From positions 62,001 through 126,000 of IMG/VR virus record IMGVR_UViG_3300025151_003852: a DNA stretch of 64,000 nt, one strand, 5' to 3'. Positions 7,809-16,337 of the stretch are shown here, one piece after another; within the stretch, counting starts at the first letter, position 1, and the number at the start of each line of letters is the position of its first letter. Origin of the DNA: a virus. The notes under the pieces are model-generated. The model saw only the letters and a program-made list of their open reading frames with translations. It made no database searches and had not been told where the DNA came from. The translations under genes were made by a program, and so were the position numbers.

Positions 7809-9571
7809 TCAATTTAAAACATGTAACTCTCAGAAACTTTTTAAGTGTAGGATCAGTTACACAAGCAATTGACTTGCAAAATGAGGAACTAACCCTCATC
7901 TTAGGTGATAACTTAGATTTAGGTGGAGACGGTGCTAGAAATGGTACTGGTAAGACTACTATTATACAAGCAATCAGTTATGCATTGTATGGTGTTCCAC
8001 TTAACAATATCAAACAAAACAATTTAATCAATAGAACTAACGGCAAAGGCATGATGGTGACATTAGACTTTGAAGCCAATGGCGTTGAGTATCGTATTGA
8101 ACGTGGACGTAAGCCTCATGGCATGAAGTTCTTTATCAACGGTGTAGATGAAGAAGACAACGAAGCACAGGGCGAAAATAAAGAGACACAACAAGTTATC
8201 GAAGACATCGTAGGCATGTCTTCAGTGATGTTTAGAAACATCGTTGCACTTAATACATACAGTCAACCATTCTTAAGCATGACACAGGGACAACAACGTG
8301 ATATCATCGAACAGTTGTTGGGTATAACTCTGTTATCAGAAAAAGCAGAGAAGATTAAAATCATTATAAAAAATAACAAAGAAGAAATTCAACAAGAAGA
8401 ATTTAAAGTCCAAGCAATAGAAGAAGCAAACAAAAGAATTGAAGAACAAATAGATAGTCTTAGAAAGAGAGAAAGACTATGGACAGCAAAGACTAATGAA
8501 GATATTGGCACGTTAAAAGATAAGATTGAAACACTAGAAAAAGTGGATATCGATGCCGAATTACTTGGACATAAACAACTTGCTGTCTATAATGCTTTAG
8601 TTAAGGATCATGCAGATATCGACAAATTAATGTTAAGAACTCAAAACGATATTGATAGAGAAACTAAGTCAATAACCAAGTTTGAAAAAGAATTAGATAT
8701 ACTAAAACAAAATAAATGTCACACATGTGGACAAGATATATGCGATGATACGCATATTAGAATCATGGGAGACAAAGAAGAAAGTTTATCAGAGGCTACT
8801 AAACATGCCGAAGAACTAGCAGAAGTTTATGTAGAATTAGAAAAAGAGAAACATTCATTGTTTGAGATAGGAGAGAAACCAGAGACTTATTATAGTTCTG
8901 AAGAAGAGGCTATCGAACATAAGAATAAAATCAAAGACTTGTCAGCACAAGTTAAACGCAAAGAGCAAGAAGAAAATCCATACACAGATCAAATATCTGA
9001 AATGGAGTCTAGTGCATTACAAGAAGCAAACTTTGATAAAGTAAACGAATTATCACGTATAGGAGATCATCAGAAGTTCTTGTTAGACCTATTAACAAGC
9101 AAAGATTCATTTGTACGTAAAAAGATTATTGATCAAAACTTATCTTACTTAAATTCACGTTTAACAAACTACTTAGACAAGATGGGTCTACCTCATCAAG
9201 TAGTATTCCAAAATGATTTGTCTGTAGAAATTACAGAATTGGGCAGAGAGTTAGACTTTGACAATTTAAGTAGAGGAGAACGTAACAGATTAATCTTAGG
9301 ATTATCATTTGCGTTCAGAGATGTTTGGGAGAACTTGTACTTCCCAATCAATACATTGTTTATTGACGAGTTGATTGACTCAGGACTTGACACTATAGGT
9401 GTTGAGAATGCTATGGCTATTCTTAAAGACATGACACGTAGACGTAACAAATCTGTTTGGTTAGTGTCACACAGAGAAGAATTAGCAGGCAGAGTTGCTA
9501 GTGTGTTACAAGTTATTAAAGAGAACGGATTCACTACATACAATTCGACTAGGGAGTTGGAGCAGTTGTGA
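7805..9571 (+). CDS. 46: Recombination endonuclease subunit gp46 (Rad50/SMC-like ATPase)
   Basis: 588 residues (T4 gp46 is 560). Walker A 'GARNGTGKTT' at 43-52; long charged coiled coil at roughly 180-420 broken by a zinc hook 'CHTC' at Cys305/Cys308; ABC signature 'LSRGERNRLILGL' near 488; Walker B 'LFIDELIDSG' near 517. The hook dimerises two arms through zinc. It is the second gene of an operon with gp47 upstream (4-nt ATGA overlap) and a radical SAM gene downstream that starts inside the gp46 stop. Confidence 0.93.
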   Translation: MINLKHVTLRNFLSVGSVTQAIDLQNEELTLILGDNLDLGGDGARNGTGKTTIIQAISYALYGVPLNNIKQNNLINRTNGKGMMVTLDFEANGVEYRIERGRKPHGMKFFINGVDEEDNEAQGENKETQQVIEDIVGMSSVMFRNIVALNTYSQPFLSMTQGQQRDIIEQLLGITLLSEKAEKIKIIIKNNKEEIQQEEFKVQAIEEANKRIEEQIDSLRKRERLWTAKTNEDIGTLKDKIETLEKVDIDAELLGHKQLAVYNALVKDHADIDKLMLRTQNDIDRETKSITKFEKELDILKQNKCHTCGQDICDDTHIRIMGDKEESLSEATKHAEELAEVYVELEKEKHSLFEIGEKPETYYSSEEEAIEHKNKIKDLSAQVKRKEQEENPYTDQISEMESSALQEANFDKVNELSRIGDHQKFLLDLLTSKDSFVRKKIIDQNLSYLNSRLTNYLDKMGLPHQVVFQNDLSVEITELGRELDFDNLSRGERNRLILGLSFAFRDVWENLYFPINTLFIDELIDSGLDTIGVENAMAILKDMTRRRNKSVWLVSHREELAGRVASVLQVIKENGFTTYNSTRELEQL

Positions 9572-10584
9572 GTCTAGCCTTGTGGCACTGGCATATTGAA
9601 GTAAGCAGTAAGTGTACTTTAAAGTGCCCACGATGTCCTAGACAAGAAGTTCCTGATACATTAGTCAGTACTGAACTCAAACTAGATTTTTTTAAACAAA
9701 ACTTCCCTGCGTTCTTTATATTAGAACACGTAGAGAAACTAACGTTCTGTGGTGACGATGGCGATCCTATCTATGCACATGACTTCTTAGAAGTCATCCA
9801 GTATTTCAAATCAATTAAGCCTAGTATAGCAATCATTATCGTCACTAACGGATCATATAAAAATGAAGACTGGTGGGCAAGACTAGCAGAAATGCTTGAT
9901 GAGCAAGATCAGATTCACTTCAGTATCGACGGCTGGGACCATGAGAGTAATAATCTCTATCGAATCAATTCTAATTGGTCTAGTATCATTACAGGCGTCT
10001 CTATCATCAATGATAAGTCTAATTGTTATACCGTATGGGACGCAATAGGCTTTAAGTTTAACGAAGATAAGATTGGCGACATGCAGAATTATGCTAGAGA
10101 CTTAGGTTTTGATGCATTTCAATTAACACGTAGCACTAAGTTCGGTAAGATATACGAAGATTCTTATGGGAAAGAAGATGCTTTACAACCACGTGATGAT
10201 CTGTTATCATCTAGTCATAGATTTGAAAGAGAAGTCTTTAAGTTTACAGATAAAACAATTAAAGAACCTTGGATGAAGACAAACATTAAGTTGTATGATG
10301 AATCTAAGTTAGTAGGAAATGAACGACCTCTATGTCATATCGGCAATAAAGGTAGTTACATTAATGCTAGGGGCGAATTTTACCCCTGTTGTTGGGTTGC
10401 TACAAGATATGGACACAACAATAAATGGAATGAAATTGGCAAGAAATATAATCTACATGAATTGAGGTTACCCAAAATTGTAAAAGATAAATTCTGGGAA
10501 GCCGACTTTATACATGACTCTTACGAGTGCCAAACAAAATGTGCCCATCATAGGGTAGATAAAAATTATGCCACCGAGTGGTAA
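9568..10584 (+). CDS. Radical SAM protein with SPASM-like C-terminus
   Basis: 338 residues starting with GTG at 9568, overlapping the gp46 stop as GTGA. The radical SAM [4Fe-4S] motif is C16-x3-C20-x2-C23 ('CTLKCPRC'). A 'TFCGDDGDP' segment follows in the place of the SAM-binding 'GGEP' motif, and 'IIIVTNGS' matches a later barrel strand. The C-terminal part has cysteines near 256, two adjacent ones in 'GEFYPCCW' near 273-277, and 'CQTKCAHH' near 322, a SPASM/twitch-like auxiliary cluster arrangement. Substrate unknown; such proteins modify peptides or RNA or mature enzymes. Placement in the gp47-gp46 unit is not the usual T4 arrangement. Confidence 0.82.
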   Translation: MSLALWHWHIEVSSKCTLKCPRCPRQEVPDTLVSTELKLDFFKQNFPAFFILEHVEKLTFCGDDGDPIYAHDFLEVIQYFKSIKPSIAIIIVTNGSYKNEDWWARLAEMLDEQDQIHFSIDGWDHESNNLYRINSNWSSIITGVSIINDKSNCYTVWDAIGFKFNEDKIGDMQNYARDLGFDAFQLTRSTKFGKIYEDSYGKEDALQPRDDLLSSSHRFEREVFKFTDKTIKEPWMKTNIKLYDESKLVGNERPLCHIGNKGSYINARGEFYPCCWVATRYGHNNKWNEIGKKYNLHELRLPKIVKDKFWEADFIHDSYECQTKCAHHRVDKNYATEW

Positions 10585-11668: not shown

Positions 11669-11899
11669 TTAGAAGAATGGCATTTGAGTTTTCTTAGTAG
11701 TTTCTAAGTGTTCCTCAATTAATTTGTTTATGGCTTTACGTTCTGATAGGGACATGTTAAGGACATCTTCATATGAGGCACCACCACGCATGTACCAAGC
11801 CAAAGTCAAGGCGTTTGACTTTAAGCCCTGAGTGTATTCTTCATATTTTTGTATTAACTCCCTTATCCCTTCAGGGTCGAGTGAAAGGAGTCTTAGACG
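11669..11899 (-). CDS. 51: gp51-like tail assembly protein, expressed as the -1 frame extension of gp26
   Basis: A 76-codon open frame beginning in the -1 frame at the gp26 stop and ending at TAA 11671-11669. It reads RLRLLSLDPEGIRELIQK..., then 'LTLAWYMRGGASYEDVLNM', and ends '...ETTKKTQMPFF', resembling gp51-type small hub-assembly proteins. There is no ATG, GTG or TTG before its conserved start; the first ATG lies in 'WYMRGG', mid-protein. Translation therefore most likely comes from -1 frameshifting at T_TTT_TTC (11905-11899), giving a gp26-gp51 fusion of about 361 residues. Independent initiation at a non-standard codon is the alternative. Confidence 0.72.
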   Translation of the reverse strand, partial: RLRLLSLDPEGIRELIQKYEEYTQGLKSNALTLAWYMRGGASYEDVLNMSLSERKAINKLIEEHLETTKKTQMPFF

Positions 11900-11905
11900 A
11901 AAAAA
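11857..11905 (-). promoter_or_regulatory. -1 programmed ribosomal frameshift signal
   Basis: On the minus strand: slippery heptamer T_TTT_TTC at 11905-11899 in the correct zero-frame register, the gp26 TAA four bases later (11895-11893), a 7-nt spacer, and an 8-bp stem (ACTCCTTT 11891-11884 with AAGGGAGT 11864-11857, one G-U pair) whose loop contains an additional CCC/GGG stem. All three parts of a canonical -1 signal are present at canonical spacing. Confidence 0.75.
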
Positions 11906-12753
11906 TCCGATGCGTTCAATGTGAATGGTTGCTTGTACTCATGTCCACATTCTTCTTTTTCTGGATCATCTGAACCTGCGGTGCATACAATAGTTAGAGG
12001 CTTAATTGTTGATTTCTCTCTAAGTTGCGTGTTGTGATCTCTTATAGTTTCATAAGTTTTCGTGTCAGCATTCTTTAGAAAGTCATGTATATGATCTGTA
12101 TCAGTAACTTCTCCTTCAGGAGTAACAATTTTTACGATTGTTTGAGATAAGATTTCCATTGTGAGTACTGTAATATCTTTCAATGCTTCAGCACTTACTA
12201 AGGTACGTTCTTGTTGATCTTCAATAGCAGATAAGTTTTTGTATTTTGCTTGAATTTCAAACTGTTTTAGACCTGCTTCATTCATTTCTTTGTACTTTAA
12301 GGGCGCAAAATAAATTTCTAACTCATTCATTCTTAAAGGAGTTTCATAATCTCCTGCCCCCAATGATCTTAGTAGAACTTGTAGATTAATACCATATGTA
12401 CCTTCTTCACCGCATTTCTCACATTTAGACTCAACATCAATAGTTTCTTGCCCACCTGCGGCTTTGATAGAGATTAATACTGTATCTAAATCAGTACTTA
12501 ATAATGCCCAAGGATTCTTAATTGCTGGTACACAACTTTTAATAATCTCTACCATGGCTGTACCATTAAACAAAGCATCTGGAGTCTTTGTCGTTATTTC
12601 ATCGATTGCTGTCATAGGATAGACAGGTAATTCTTTGTTCTCAGGCCATTCGATGTCTTCAGGTGCGTAACTTTCCCCACCTGACGGTAAAGAGATATGT
12701 ACAGCGGGTCTACGAAAAAACTGTCGTAGCGGATTATTTTCATTAATTGTCAT
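11893..12753 (-). CDS. 26: Baseplate hub assembly protein gp26-like
   Basis: 286 residues on the minus strand. A probable zinc-binding set is visible: C111-x2-C114 ('CEKCGEEG') and C257...C269-x-H271 near the C-terminus. Position beside the gp51-like frame matches the T4 gene order 26-51. T4 gp26 is 208 residues, so this version is longer. The 3' end carries the frameshift signal. The gene diverges from the tape-measure-like gene and has its own late promoter (CTAAATAT, 12816-12809). The neighbouring tape measure supports a chaperone-like function analogous to the frameshifted tail chaperones of siphoviruses; that functional comparison is inference. Confidence 0.7.
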   Translation of the reverse strand: MTINENNPLRQFFRRPAVHISLPSGGESYAPEDIEWPENKELPVYPMTAIDEITTKTPDALFNGTAMVEIIKSCVPAIKNPWALLSTDLDTVLISIKAAGGQETIDVESKCEKCGEEGTYGINLQVLLRSLGAGDYETPLRMNELEIYFAPLKYKEMNEAGLKQFEIQAKYKNLSAIEDQQERTLVSAEALKDITVLTMEILSQTIVKIVTPEGEVTDTDHIHDFLKNADTKTYETIRDHNTQLREKSTIKPLTIVCTAGSDDPEKEECGHEYKQPFTLNASDFFV

Positions 12754-12860: not shown

Positions 12861-15800
12861 ATGGATGATTTTTCACCTGAAGAAATGCGAGAATTTAATG
12901 AGAATTTAAATTCTATGAATGCCTCTTTGGGAGCATTAAATTCAGGACTACAAAATTTATCTAATACCCTAAATCAAACATCACAGGCAAATCAGGAAGC
13001 CGCAAAACAGTCAGAAGAAAACACAAAACAGCAAACATCTTCTACTAATAAAAAGACAGAATCAGATGATAGAGCCGGCGAACAAATAAAAACAACTGCT
13101 GAAAAAATGTCAGGAGCATTGCGAACTGCTACTAGTGCAGTTGTTAGTTTTTCAGGTGCATTAGTTTCAGGTGTTGATGGTTTTGACAAGTATACTAAAG
13201 CAGTATCAGGTTTTGGAGACTCAGCAAAAGAAACTGGTGACGCATTAGGTGGATTCGGTAAGTTTTTAGGTAACGCAGTAAACATATTAGCCGAGTTTAC
13301 AGTCGTTACAATGAAACAGGCTGATGCACAAAATCAGTTTGCAAAAGAAATGAACCGAATGGGTGCTATTGTTGATACAACTACCCAAGGTTTAGCAGAA
13401 CAAGCAAGAGCCGCAGGCGCAAGTGCAGGTGACTTACAAGAATTAGCCGTAGTTATTACTCAAAGTTCTCAAGCATTAGCATCGTTTGGTGCAGGTACTT
13501 CTGAGGGTACAGCAAAAATGCTGGAAGTCTTCAGATTATCTGATGACCAAGAAAGAGAAATGCGTAGATATGGGTACACTCTAAGAGAAGCCCAAGAACA
13601 ACAAGCATATTACATAGAATTGCAAAGAACATCTGGTATTAATATGCAAGCCAGAGAGATGACTGAACAAGATGTTCGTATTAAGTCATTACAGTATGCA
13701 AAAACATTAAACACATTATCAGAGTTAACAGGTATTCAAGCCGGACAACTCAAAGAAGAACAAGCCGCAGTACAAGCAGACTTACGTAATAAGATTCGTA
13801 ATATACGTGATCAAAATGATATTGAAAGACTTAAGCAACAGTTAGACGGCAACATTACTGCTGAAAAAAGAAAATCGATAGAAGCAGAAATAAGAGCAAG
13901 AGAAGAAGAAATACAAGTAAGAGTCGATGCAGGTAACCAATTTGCAGGTTTACTAGGCAGAGACATGGCTGCCAAAGTGATGAACGTTATTGGTACTGGG
14001 GCATTTGATGAGAATACAAAAGAACTAGCAAACTTAGGTCTTAATGCCGCAGAACTTAAAGAAAGATTTGCAGGCTTGACTGCTGGTTCAGACGAATACA
14101 AACAAGCAGTTGCCGAAACAACAGGTGAACTCGTAGGTGGTGTTAGACGAAACGTAGATAGGTTCGGTAAGTCTATGGAACTTGCCGCTAACGCAAGTGA
14201 GATCGGCGCCGCAGTAGGTATTAACGAAAGAACAACAGATACAGCCAGACTTTTTGATAGCCAAGATCAGGCTACGAATAGAGTATTAGAAAGTTTTGAT
14301 AAAGTATCAGAGGCTACACAAGAAGGCGTAGATACACAAAAAGATTTGGCCGCTGAACTACAAGTATTTGAAACTAATGTTAGAACAGCCGCAGATGAGT
14401 TTTTAAATTCGATTAATCCGTTTACAGGTGGATTAGGATTAGGCACTATTGCACTAGGCGGTTTTACAATAGCATTAGGAACCGCTACAACTGCATTATA
14501 TGGCATGGCTGGTTCAGGAGCAGGAAGTGGCATGTTAGACATGTTCACCGGCGGCGGTAACGGTGGCGGTAAACGAGCAAGAGGGTTAAGAGCGGCCGGC
14601 AACTTCTTATCAAAAGGTGTTAGTAGATTAGCCGTACCACTAGCCGCAGGAATGTCTATTTATAGTGGAGTATCAGAAGCAAGTGCAGGACGAGATGAAG
14701 CAGATGCACAACTAGCCCAAGTAACAGACGCCGAAGACTCATCAGTAGCAGAAATATATCGTGCTAAAAAACAGCACGAAATAGACACTAAACAAGCCAA
14801 CAGAAAGGGGGCCGGTACAGCAATCGGCGGTACTGGTGGAGCCATTGCAGGTGCGGCCGCAGGTGCAGCCATAGGTTCGTTTATTCCAATCATTGGAACA
14901 GCAATTGGTGGTATTATCGGCGGAGCCTTAGGAGCATGGGGCGGATCTTCAGCAGGAAGTGCAATAGCAGAAAACTATCTAAGTCCAGAAGACTTAGAAA
15001 TGTATAATGCTAGTGATGCTGAATATGCTTTAATGACTGATGAAGAAAAAGAAAAATATAATGAGATCAGAGATGCTATTAAGGAACAAACACGATTACA
15101 AGAAGAAGAAGCAACACGTTTAGAAAAAGCATATAATGACAATTACGAGGAAATACAGAAGATAGGTCTATATGACAAAGACTTGCTTGGTAATAGTGAA
15201 GTAAACTTTGAAATGCTTGCCCAAATGAGAGACGATGGTACTCTCTCACAAGAAATGCTTGAGGCTATGCTATATGATAATGATTTAAGTGAAGCAGACA
15301 CGGCATTAGTGCAGAAACAGTTAGATTTGATGAAAGCAAACGCCGAAAAAGACGAAGTAAAAGAAAAAGAAAAAGAAGTAGCAGAAGTAAAAGAAGAAGA
15401 AGTAGGTGGCAGAACATTAGATATGTCTCCTGAAAATCTAGCCAAAATATTTGAGGCAGATATAAAAGCAGAAGAAAAAAGAAATGCAGAAAAACAAGCA
15501 GAACAACTTGCACTCGCACAAGCAAAAGAAGAAACTGTTACAGAACAAATTACACCTGAAGTTGTTGCTAATGCATTAAAAGAAACAGGAAGCGGCGCAC
15601 CTATTCCAGGAGTAGTTGATACAGAACAATTATTAGCAACAACAGACGTTGTTGAAAATATGATAGCAGATGCAGGGAAAGCCATTAGTACCCCTGCATT
15701 AGAAGAAATCACAACTACAGCAGAATCTGTCCCTATAGATGATATTTTAAAAGAAGTTCAAGTTTCTTCATCTAAAGTAGCAACTCTTATAGAATCACCT

Positions 15801-16337
15801 GCAATTAAAAAAGCAGTAGATCCACTAGATGAATTAAGAAATATGGATAATGGTTTTGGTGGAACTCTAGGAGACACGGTCACAAGAGACATGGTGAGAG
15901 GTGGATATATTGCTCATGGTCAATTTGGTTCATTAGATCCATTAACAGGTGAAGCACCTGAAATGGAAAGAAGACACTTTGAAACCGAAGAAGAAGCCCT
16001 TAGAGCAATGGCCGCTCCTCAAGAATGGGAAGCACAATTACAAGCAAAGTTGGATGCTAACTTTGCTGAGATGATGGCTGAAATAGATGCAGGATCACCT
16101 GGAACTATGCCCGTTGTTGATATTACTCCAGAACCAACTGAAGAAGAACCTAGTGCTGAAGTACAGTCCGATAGTCAACTTGCCCAAACTGATACTGGTG
16201 GTGGAGAAATGACTGAATTTGAAAAACGTAGTCTAGCCGCACTAGAAAAGCAGAATGAGAGACTTGCTAGAATTGAAAATGCATCTATAGAGACCGCAGA
16301 TGGTACCCAAAAAATTGCAATCAACTCGGCAGTTTAA
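12861..16337 (+). CDS. Tape-measure-like tail protein
   Basis: 1158 residues, rich in Ala, Gln, Glu and Lys with long predicted helices. Coiled-coil N-terminus ('NLNSMNASLGALNSGL', residues 15-30); long charged helices at about 280-330; Gly/Ala-rich hydrophobic stretches at about 510-560 and again near 650-700 ('GAIAGAAAGAAIGSFIPIIG'); strongly charged Glu/Lys coil near 825-880; Thr/Glu/Pro-rich C-terminus. Length and composition are those of tape-measure proteins, which fix tail length and leave the tail during injection. It is far longer than T4 gp29 (590 residues). Its location next to the gp26/gp51 frameshift pair mimics the chaperone-tape measure gene order of other tailed phages. Confidence 0.68.
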   Translation: MDDFSPEEMREFNENLNSMNASLGALNSGLQNLSNTLNQTSQANQEAAKQSEENTKQQTSSTNKKTESDDRAGEQIKTTAEKMSGALRTATSAVVSFSGALVSGVDGFDKYTKAVSGFGDSAKETGDALGGFGKFLGNAVNILAEFTVVTMKQADAQNQFAKEMNRMGAIVDTTTQGLAEQARAAGASAGDLQELAVVITQSSQALASFGAGTSEGTAKMLEVFRLSDDQEREMRRYGYTLREAQEQQAYYIELQRTSGINMQAREMTEQDVRIKSLQYAKTLNTLSELTGIQAGQLKEEQAAVQADLRNKIRNIRDQNDIERLKQQLDGNITAEKRKSIEAEIRAREEEIQVRVDAGNQFAGLLGRDMAAKVMNVIGTGAFDENTKELANLGLNAAELKERFAGLTAGSDEYKQAVAETTGELVGGVRRNVDRFGKSMELAANASEIGAAVGINERTTDTARLFDSQDQATNRVLESFDKVSEATQEGVDTQKDLAAELQVFETNVRTAADEFLNSINPFTGGLGLGTIALGGFTIALGTATTALYGMAGSGAGSGMLDMFTGGGNGGGKRARGLRAAGNFLSKGVSRLAVPLAAGMSIYSGVSEASAGRDEADAQLAQVTDAEDSSVAEIYRAKKQHEIDTKQANRKGAGTAIGGTGGAIAGAAAGAAIGSFIPIIGTAIGGIIGGALGAWGGSSAGSAIAENYLSPEDLEMYNASDAEYALMTDEEKEKYNEIRDAIKEQTRLQEEEATRLEKAYNDNYEEIQKIGLYDKDLLGNSEVNFEMLAQMRDDGTLSQEMLEAMLYDNDLSEADTALVQKQLDLMKANAEKDEVKEKEKEVAEVKEEEVGGRTLDMSPENLAKIFEADIKAEEKRNAEKQAEQLALAQAKEETVTEQITPEVVANALKETGSGAPIPGVVDTEQLLATTDVVENMIADAGKAISTPALEEITTTAESVPIDDILKEVQVSSSKVATLIESPAIKKAVDPLDELRNMDNGFGGTLGDTVTRDMVRGGYIAHGQFGSLDPLTGEAPEMERRHFETEEEALRAMAAPQEWEAQLQAKLDANFAEMMAEIDAGSPGTMPVVDITPEPTEEEPSAEVQSDSQLAQTDTGGGEMTEFEKRSLAALEKQNERLARIENASIETADGTQKIAINSAV

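Follow-up and report, generated by a model that had tools for sequence, protein, structure and literature searches.

Phage lambda makes a short tail assembly chaperone, gpG, from a gene next to the tape measure gene, and a -1 shift at the 3' end of this gene gives a minority long form, gpGT (Xu, Hendrix and Duda 2004). For T4-like phages, the tail assembly chaperones have likewise been identified (Vladimirov, Gautam and Davidson, Virology 2022;566:9-15). As that work is summarized elsewhere, some T4-like phages replace the frameshift with two genes, one for a short form and one for a long (fusion) form (PMC10885494, citing Vladimirov et al. 2022), and the short-form genes of T4-like phages carry a poly-T slippery site (PMC12846349, citing Vladimirov et al. 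2022). For the Vandenendeviridae/Andersonviridae, including phage Adele, the latter source also describes a -1 frameshift that is conserved and has a poly-T motif (GTTTTT), and annotations there usually list the downstream frame as a hypothetical protein of its own (PMC12846349). The same is true of some relatives of our locus. The Adele chaperone locus belongs to other phage families and is likened to ours by arrangement.

Here we analyze a gene of the T4 gp26/gp51 family of tail assembly chaperones in a 64,000-nucleotide stretch of viral DNA (hereafter the window). Judging from sequence comparisons, programmed -1 ribosomal frameshifting very probably allows this gene to encode two proteins. 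As in the T4-like chaperones (TAC-N/TAC-NC), a PF12322 family protein is followed by a similar C-terminal extension, but the genome of the window falls in a jumbo-phage-like group. The likeness to lambda is one of arrangement: our locus has T_TTT_TTC and a divergent tape measure gene, whereas the lambda slippery heptamer is GGGAAAG and its tape measure gene lies directly downstream. Kyanoviridae cyanophages (S-CAM8 and relatives) resemble the window in that their gp26 genes end with AGT, TCT, or GCT followed by TTT TTC, continue into a -1 extension, and represent the only PF12322 copy. However, the WYMRGG motif is missing from their extension, whose sequence is closer to that of T4 gp51, and their gp26 gene adjoins tail tube and lysozyme genes.

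The abstract of the previous study on T4-like chaperones reportedly mentions genes 26 and 51 of T4 and presents frameshifting as a conserved feature of several T4-like groups. A preliminary description of this DNA was aware of no account of such a signal for gp26/gp51, but there is one in Vladimirov et al. 2022 (as cited in PMC10885494 and PMC12846349). Thus, going by these sources, the two-form principle is already known in T4-like phages, and the comparisons below make the jumbo-phage case a well-supported further example. Relative to what these sources report, our analysis adds the reach of the system into jumbo phages, the contrast between a near-invariant heptamer and a variable hairpin, and the pattern of single-copy versus two-copy genomes.

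Anatomy of the chaperone junction

The features of the locus are listed in Table 1. The gp26-family open reading frame (ORF) ends with GAT TTT TTC GTC TAA, in which T_TTT_TTC fits the X_XXY_YYZ register of the 0-frame. A -1 shift at this heptamer enters a frame that is open to position 11669, giving a predicted fusion of 361 amino acids whose extension contains RLRLLSLDPEGIRELIQ...WYMRGGASYEDVLNMSLSERK. No ATG, GTG, or TTG is present in the -1 frame upstream of the heptamer, and the first such codon downstream is a TTG at codon 31 (position 11809). Beyond the spacer, an 8-bp stem (ACUCCUUU/AAGGGAGU) pairs positions 11891-11884 with 11864-11857, and an additional G-U pair (11892/11856) extends it to 9 bp with a 6-nt spacer and a predicted energy of -13.1 kcal/mol. 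The preliminary description had reported each of these parts (the heptamer in register at the gp26 stop, the lack of a start codon before the conserved region of the -1 frame, the 361-residue product, and the 8-bp stem after a 7-nt spacer), and all of them are borne out, as is its placement of the fusion next to a tape-measure-like gene.

Table 1. Positions of the features at the chaperone locus, numbered along the window
Feature	Position	Strand	Description	Basis
Short-form TAC-N	11893..12753	-	gp26-family tail assembly chaperone, 286 aa, 0-frame	PF12322, phrog_150, AlphaFold2/BFVD
Slippery heptamer	11899..11905	-	T_TTT_TTC, 0-frame GAT TTT TTC	Conserved across relatives
Spacer	11893..11898	-	6 nt (7 without the outermost G-U pair), includes 0-frame GTC TAA	
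Stop codon	11895-11893	-	TAA of the 0-frame ORF	
Predicted stem-loop	11856..11892	-	Possible frameshift stimulator; outer stem of 9 bp (11892-11884/11864-11856) plus an inner 3-bp stem	
TAC-C	11669..11899	-	C-terminal domain restricted to the long form, 76 aa + stop	Conserved, dN/dS, likeness to gp51 C-terminus
Tape-measure-like protein	12861..16337	+	1158 aa, divergent neighbor, presumed client	phrog_794, phrog_167

In profile searches, the short-form ORF matches PF12322 at 42.8 bits (curated cut-off 24.5, E 6.3e-11) and the baseplate hub family phrog_150 (E 2.7e-13). Its AlphaFold2 model (pLDDT 82.8) retrieves T4-like baseplate hub assembly proteins from BFVD with a best E of 5.8e-21, and a fold search of the PDB with the same model matched no solved structure. 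The divergent neighbor matches tail length tape measure families phrog_794 (E 3.2e-16) and phrog_167 (E 2.7e-13). An adjacent divergent gene for a large structural or tape measure protein is also present in Phosso, PA5oct, SCTP-2, XaC1, SNUABM_47, 121Q, RaK2, and Munch. Between an SbcC/gp46-like gene and the chaperone region, the window also holds a radical SAM-like ORF of 338 aa (9568-10584, + strand) with a CxxxCxxC-like start (CTLKCPRCPRQ).

The sequence TTTTTTC is by itself a common motif, occurring 22 times in the window compared to 23.5 expected. Likewise, the stem is unremarkable alone, with a dinucleotide z of -1.24 and 22 of 200 shuffled sequences folding equally well. Because neither the heptamer nor the stem is rare when taken singly, the case depends on comparison with relatives.

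Conservation of the heptamer and the extension

Three sets of relatives were compared: 26 IMG/VR viral loci with 54-100% identity (L001-L026), nine cultured jumbo phages with 27-33% identity (L027-L035: Phosso, Atu_ph07, PA5oct, SCTP-2, XaC1, pEa_SNUABM_47, 121Q, RaK2, and Munch), and 85 further loci that are mostly cyanophage-like. Scans of viral contigs with gp26 of RaK2, Phosso, and PA5oct returned few loci. The junction alignment that the preliminary description had proposed as a check yields the heptamer in register in all 26 IMG/VR relatives, down to 54% identity, in 9/9 jumbo phages, and in 81 of the 85 further loci, although, because the lineages share ancestry, fewer of these observations are independent than the raw counts suggest. 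The other four loci carry T_TTT_TTA or T_TTT_TTG, which retain the slippery pattern. In every jumbo phage, the -1 frame opens into an extension that mostly starts R-x-x-L-L, and it leads into a related extension in 85/85 of the further loci, reaching 31-75 codons beyond the stop (the 31-codon extension is one short case, L081).

The distance from the heptamer to the 0-frame stop varies from 0 to 11 codons, and therefore the conserved element is the heptamer rather than the position of the stop. The residue that precedes Phe-Phe is also variable (D, H, S, R, N, or A), yet the last base of its codon is always T. Given the codon usage of each gene, the chance of this Phe-Phe spelling is 0.07-0.17 per gene, and these values were left unmultiplied because the sequences are related. 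On this comparative evidence, the conservation of the heptamer is not a matter of chance.

The extension has the properties of a coding sequence. A comparison of six near relatives gives dN/dS values of 0.13-0.44 and zero stops for the -1 frame, whereas the two remaining frames have values mostly above 1 and 4-11 stops. Both the WYMRGG motif and the E-R of an SxxER motif are invariant throughout the clade of the window. These substitution patterns indicate that the extension is translated as protein and is under purifying selection.

A rival explanation is that the extension is a small gene in its own right, read from its own start or by termination-reinitiation. The extension is in fact annotated separately in some relatives (Phosso XYS97476 and 121Q gene 595) with an ATG at most two codons from the junction, and in Phosso, Atu_ph07, and 121Q the extension could also be translated separately, from an ATG close to the junction. 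Pseudomonas phage Cygsa01, which does not belong to the main set, lacks the T6 heptamer and has overlapping stop and start codons (TAATG). However, there is no start at the junction in the clade of the window, PA5oct, RaK2, Munch, XaC1, or SCTP-2. In the window, the -1 frame opens with 30 codons that contain no start even though that stretch is conserved, and the PA5oct extension has no start anywhere. A separate gene also leaves the invariant heptamer unexplained, and we regard this explanation as improbable.

Current annotations treat the extension unevenly. In RaK2 (L034, 4849-5214) and PA5oct (L029, 4849-5073), no gene is annotated for the conserved extension. In 121Q, Munch, XaC1, Atu_ph07, and SNUABM_47, it is partly listed as a separate hypothetical protein, and the Munch extension is matched by phrog_18291, a family that carries no annotated function. 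Three other phages have variant junctions. In Synechococcus phage S-SCSM1 (L039:3175-3400), gp26 ends TCT TTT TTC GCT TAG and a gp51-like extension lies in the +1 frame as an annotated gene with its own ATG, either because this phage has turned to translating it separately or because the record contains an indel. Serratia phage Kevin (L040:3140-3350) and Cygsa01 (L041:2750-2990) have related -1 extensions, with GTT TTC or ATT TTC in place of the T6 heptamer, and the overlap in Cygsa01 may be used for reinitiation.

A run of six T is a homopolymer, and the fusion could in principle arise from RNA polymerase slipping on this run to produce mRNAs of altered run length. Tracts known to cause transcriptional slippage are usually longer, about 8-9 or more. 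In all sequences examined, the run consists of six T followed by C, A, or G in the X_XXY_YYZ register and is never longer, and many relatives have a hairpin after it, which makes transcriptional slippage highly improbable compared to slippage by the ribosome. Finally, homopolymer errors are common in assemblies, but a sequencing error or a decaying pseudogene is already refuted as the source of the broken frame by the comparative data, since 26 metagenomic contigs share this arrangement with finished genomes of cultured phages at about 30% identity, and the purifying selection on the extension argues against a pseudogene.

The downstream hairpin

The stem-loop is less constant than the heptamer. 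When codons of the -1 frame were permuted synonymously, the clade of the window gave a z of about -0.5, which is not significant. The same procedure gave values of -2.3 to -2.9 for three of the IMG/VR loci (L019, L020, and L024), -2.8 for 121Q, and -4.9 for Atu_ph07. In the 85 nt examined for RaK2, Munch, and SNUABM_47, there was no strong hairpin, and z was near or above zero. Among 27 non-redundant other loci, the mean z of the hairpin is -1.55, with 23 of the 27 values negative. The three of these loci that carry the altered heptamers TTTTTTA/G, the cyanophage-like contigs L123, L125, and L126, have unusually strong hairpins (z of -2.5, -3.7, and -5.5), as if the site and its stimulator had changed together.

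The preliminary description had suggested asking whether compensatory changes preserve the stem. In the clade of the window, 89% of cells are paired, compared to at most 64% in slid controls, and the core pairs are kept, but double changes occur at only 2 of 12 stem pairs. Support from covariation is also modest because the structure was derived from one of those sequences. Since hairpin strength differs among relatives, ranging from strong to weak or absent, downstream structure appears to be a tendency of the family rather than a fixed part of the signal. Of the originally proposed -1 signal, the heptamer is conserved, as is the -1 frame that it leads into, and the stem-loop is present as described but not universally conserved. 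We also considered the stem-loop as the key conserved part, and this was not upheld generally, given that permutation z values and slid controls were variable or modest. A role for the hairpin as a frameshift stimulator is plausible.

Gene copy number and a proposed mechanism

T4 gp26 and gp51 are paralogues, with PF12322 E values of 8.8e-64 and 3.9e-52, respectively. PF12322 spans residues 1-201 of T4 gp51 and is followed by about 48 further C-terminal residues. When seven gp51 sequences were compared with extensions using hhalign, the probability was 95.6% for the cyanophage extensions and 87% for all extensions pooled, with the alignment at the gp51 C-terminus. Jumbo-type extensions alone gave a weak 42%, and the controls gave 0.5% (N-terminal part of gp51) and 0.3% (gp26). 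Similarly, phrog_634, annotated as ‘baseplate hub assembly catalyst’, matches both a cyanophage extension (4e-29) and T4 gp51 (1.2e-23). This likeness requires profile-profile comparison, as a search of single T4 sequences with an HMM of the fusion protein returned nothing useful for gp51.

Therefore, the -1 frame is ‘gp51-like’, as it was first called, in that it resembles the C-terminal ~50 residues of gp51, but it bears no likeness to the rest of that protein. The notion of gp26 fused to gp51 has to be corrected. Because T4 gp51 is a gp26 paralogue with an extension-like C-terminal addition, the counterpart of gp51 is the complete frameshift product, and that of gp26 is the short product. 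We also considered gp51 as an independent domain, which is ruled out by T4 gp51 being an entire PF12322 protein plus the extension.

The number of PF12322 copies differs among these phages. One copy is present in the 128-kb record of the window (which is possibly incomplete), in eight of the nine jumbo phages, and in cyanophage S-CAM8. In the ninth jumbo phage, SCTP-2, PF12322 scores below threshold, yet gp26 is found by tblastn. Two copies are present in T4, RB43, Aeromonas 31, phiP4-3, FL15, and Melville. In T4, genes 26 and 51 are divergently transcribed, with gene 51 on the opposite strand. The same frameshift was sought in T4 and rejected, as gp26 there ends TTC TTT GAG TTA CTA TAA directly on gene 25 and the heptamer is absent. 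One copy with a frameshift versus two copies in Straboviridae suggests alternative routes to the same pair of proteins. We lean slightly toward a history in which the one-gene -1 frameshift is ancestral across T4-related and jumbo phages, with U_UUU_UUC persisting near-unchanged while phages repeatedly lost or rebuilt the RNA stimulator, and in which Straboviridae escaped recoding by duplication into genes 26 and 51.

In the mechanism that we propose, the majority of ribosomes would terminate at the TAA and release the 286-aa short form, the counterpart of gp26. A minority would slip back one base on U_UUU_UUC, with both tRNA-Phe re-pairing with UUU, and would read 76 more codons to yield the 361-aa long form, the counterpart of gp51. 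The downstream hairpin probably aids this slippage. Frameshifting at this site is as strongly supported as comparative genomics permits. By analogy with lambda gpG/gpGT, both forms may coat or chaperone the tape measure protein encoded by the adjacent gene, and the extension may recruit tube or hub components.

These findings bear on how such genomes are annotated. The small ‘hypothetical protein’ ORFs that follow gp26 in jumbo phages, such as 121Q gene 595 and members of the phrog_18291 family, probably do not constitute genes of their own, and the RaK2 and PA5oct annotations miss this conserved extension domain entirely. They also provide a sensible and testable answer to the long-standing question of why hub assembly in T4 depends on both gp26 and gp51, which would be the short and long forms that single-gene phages make.
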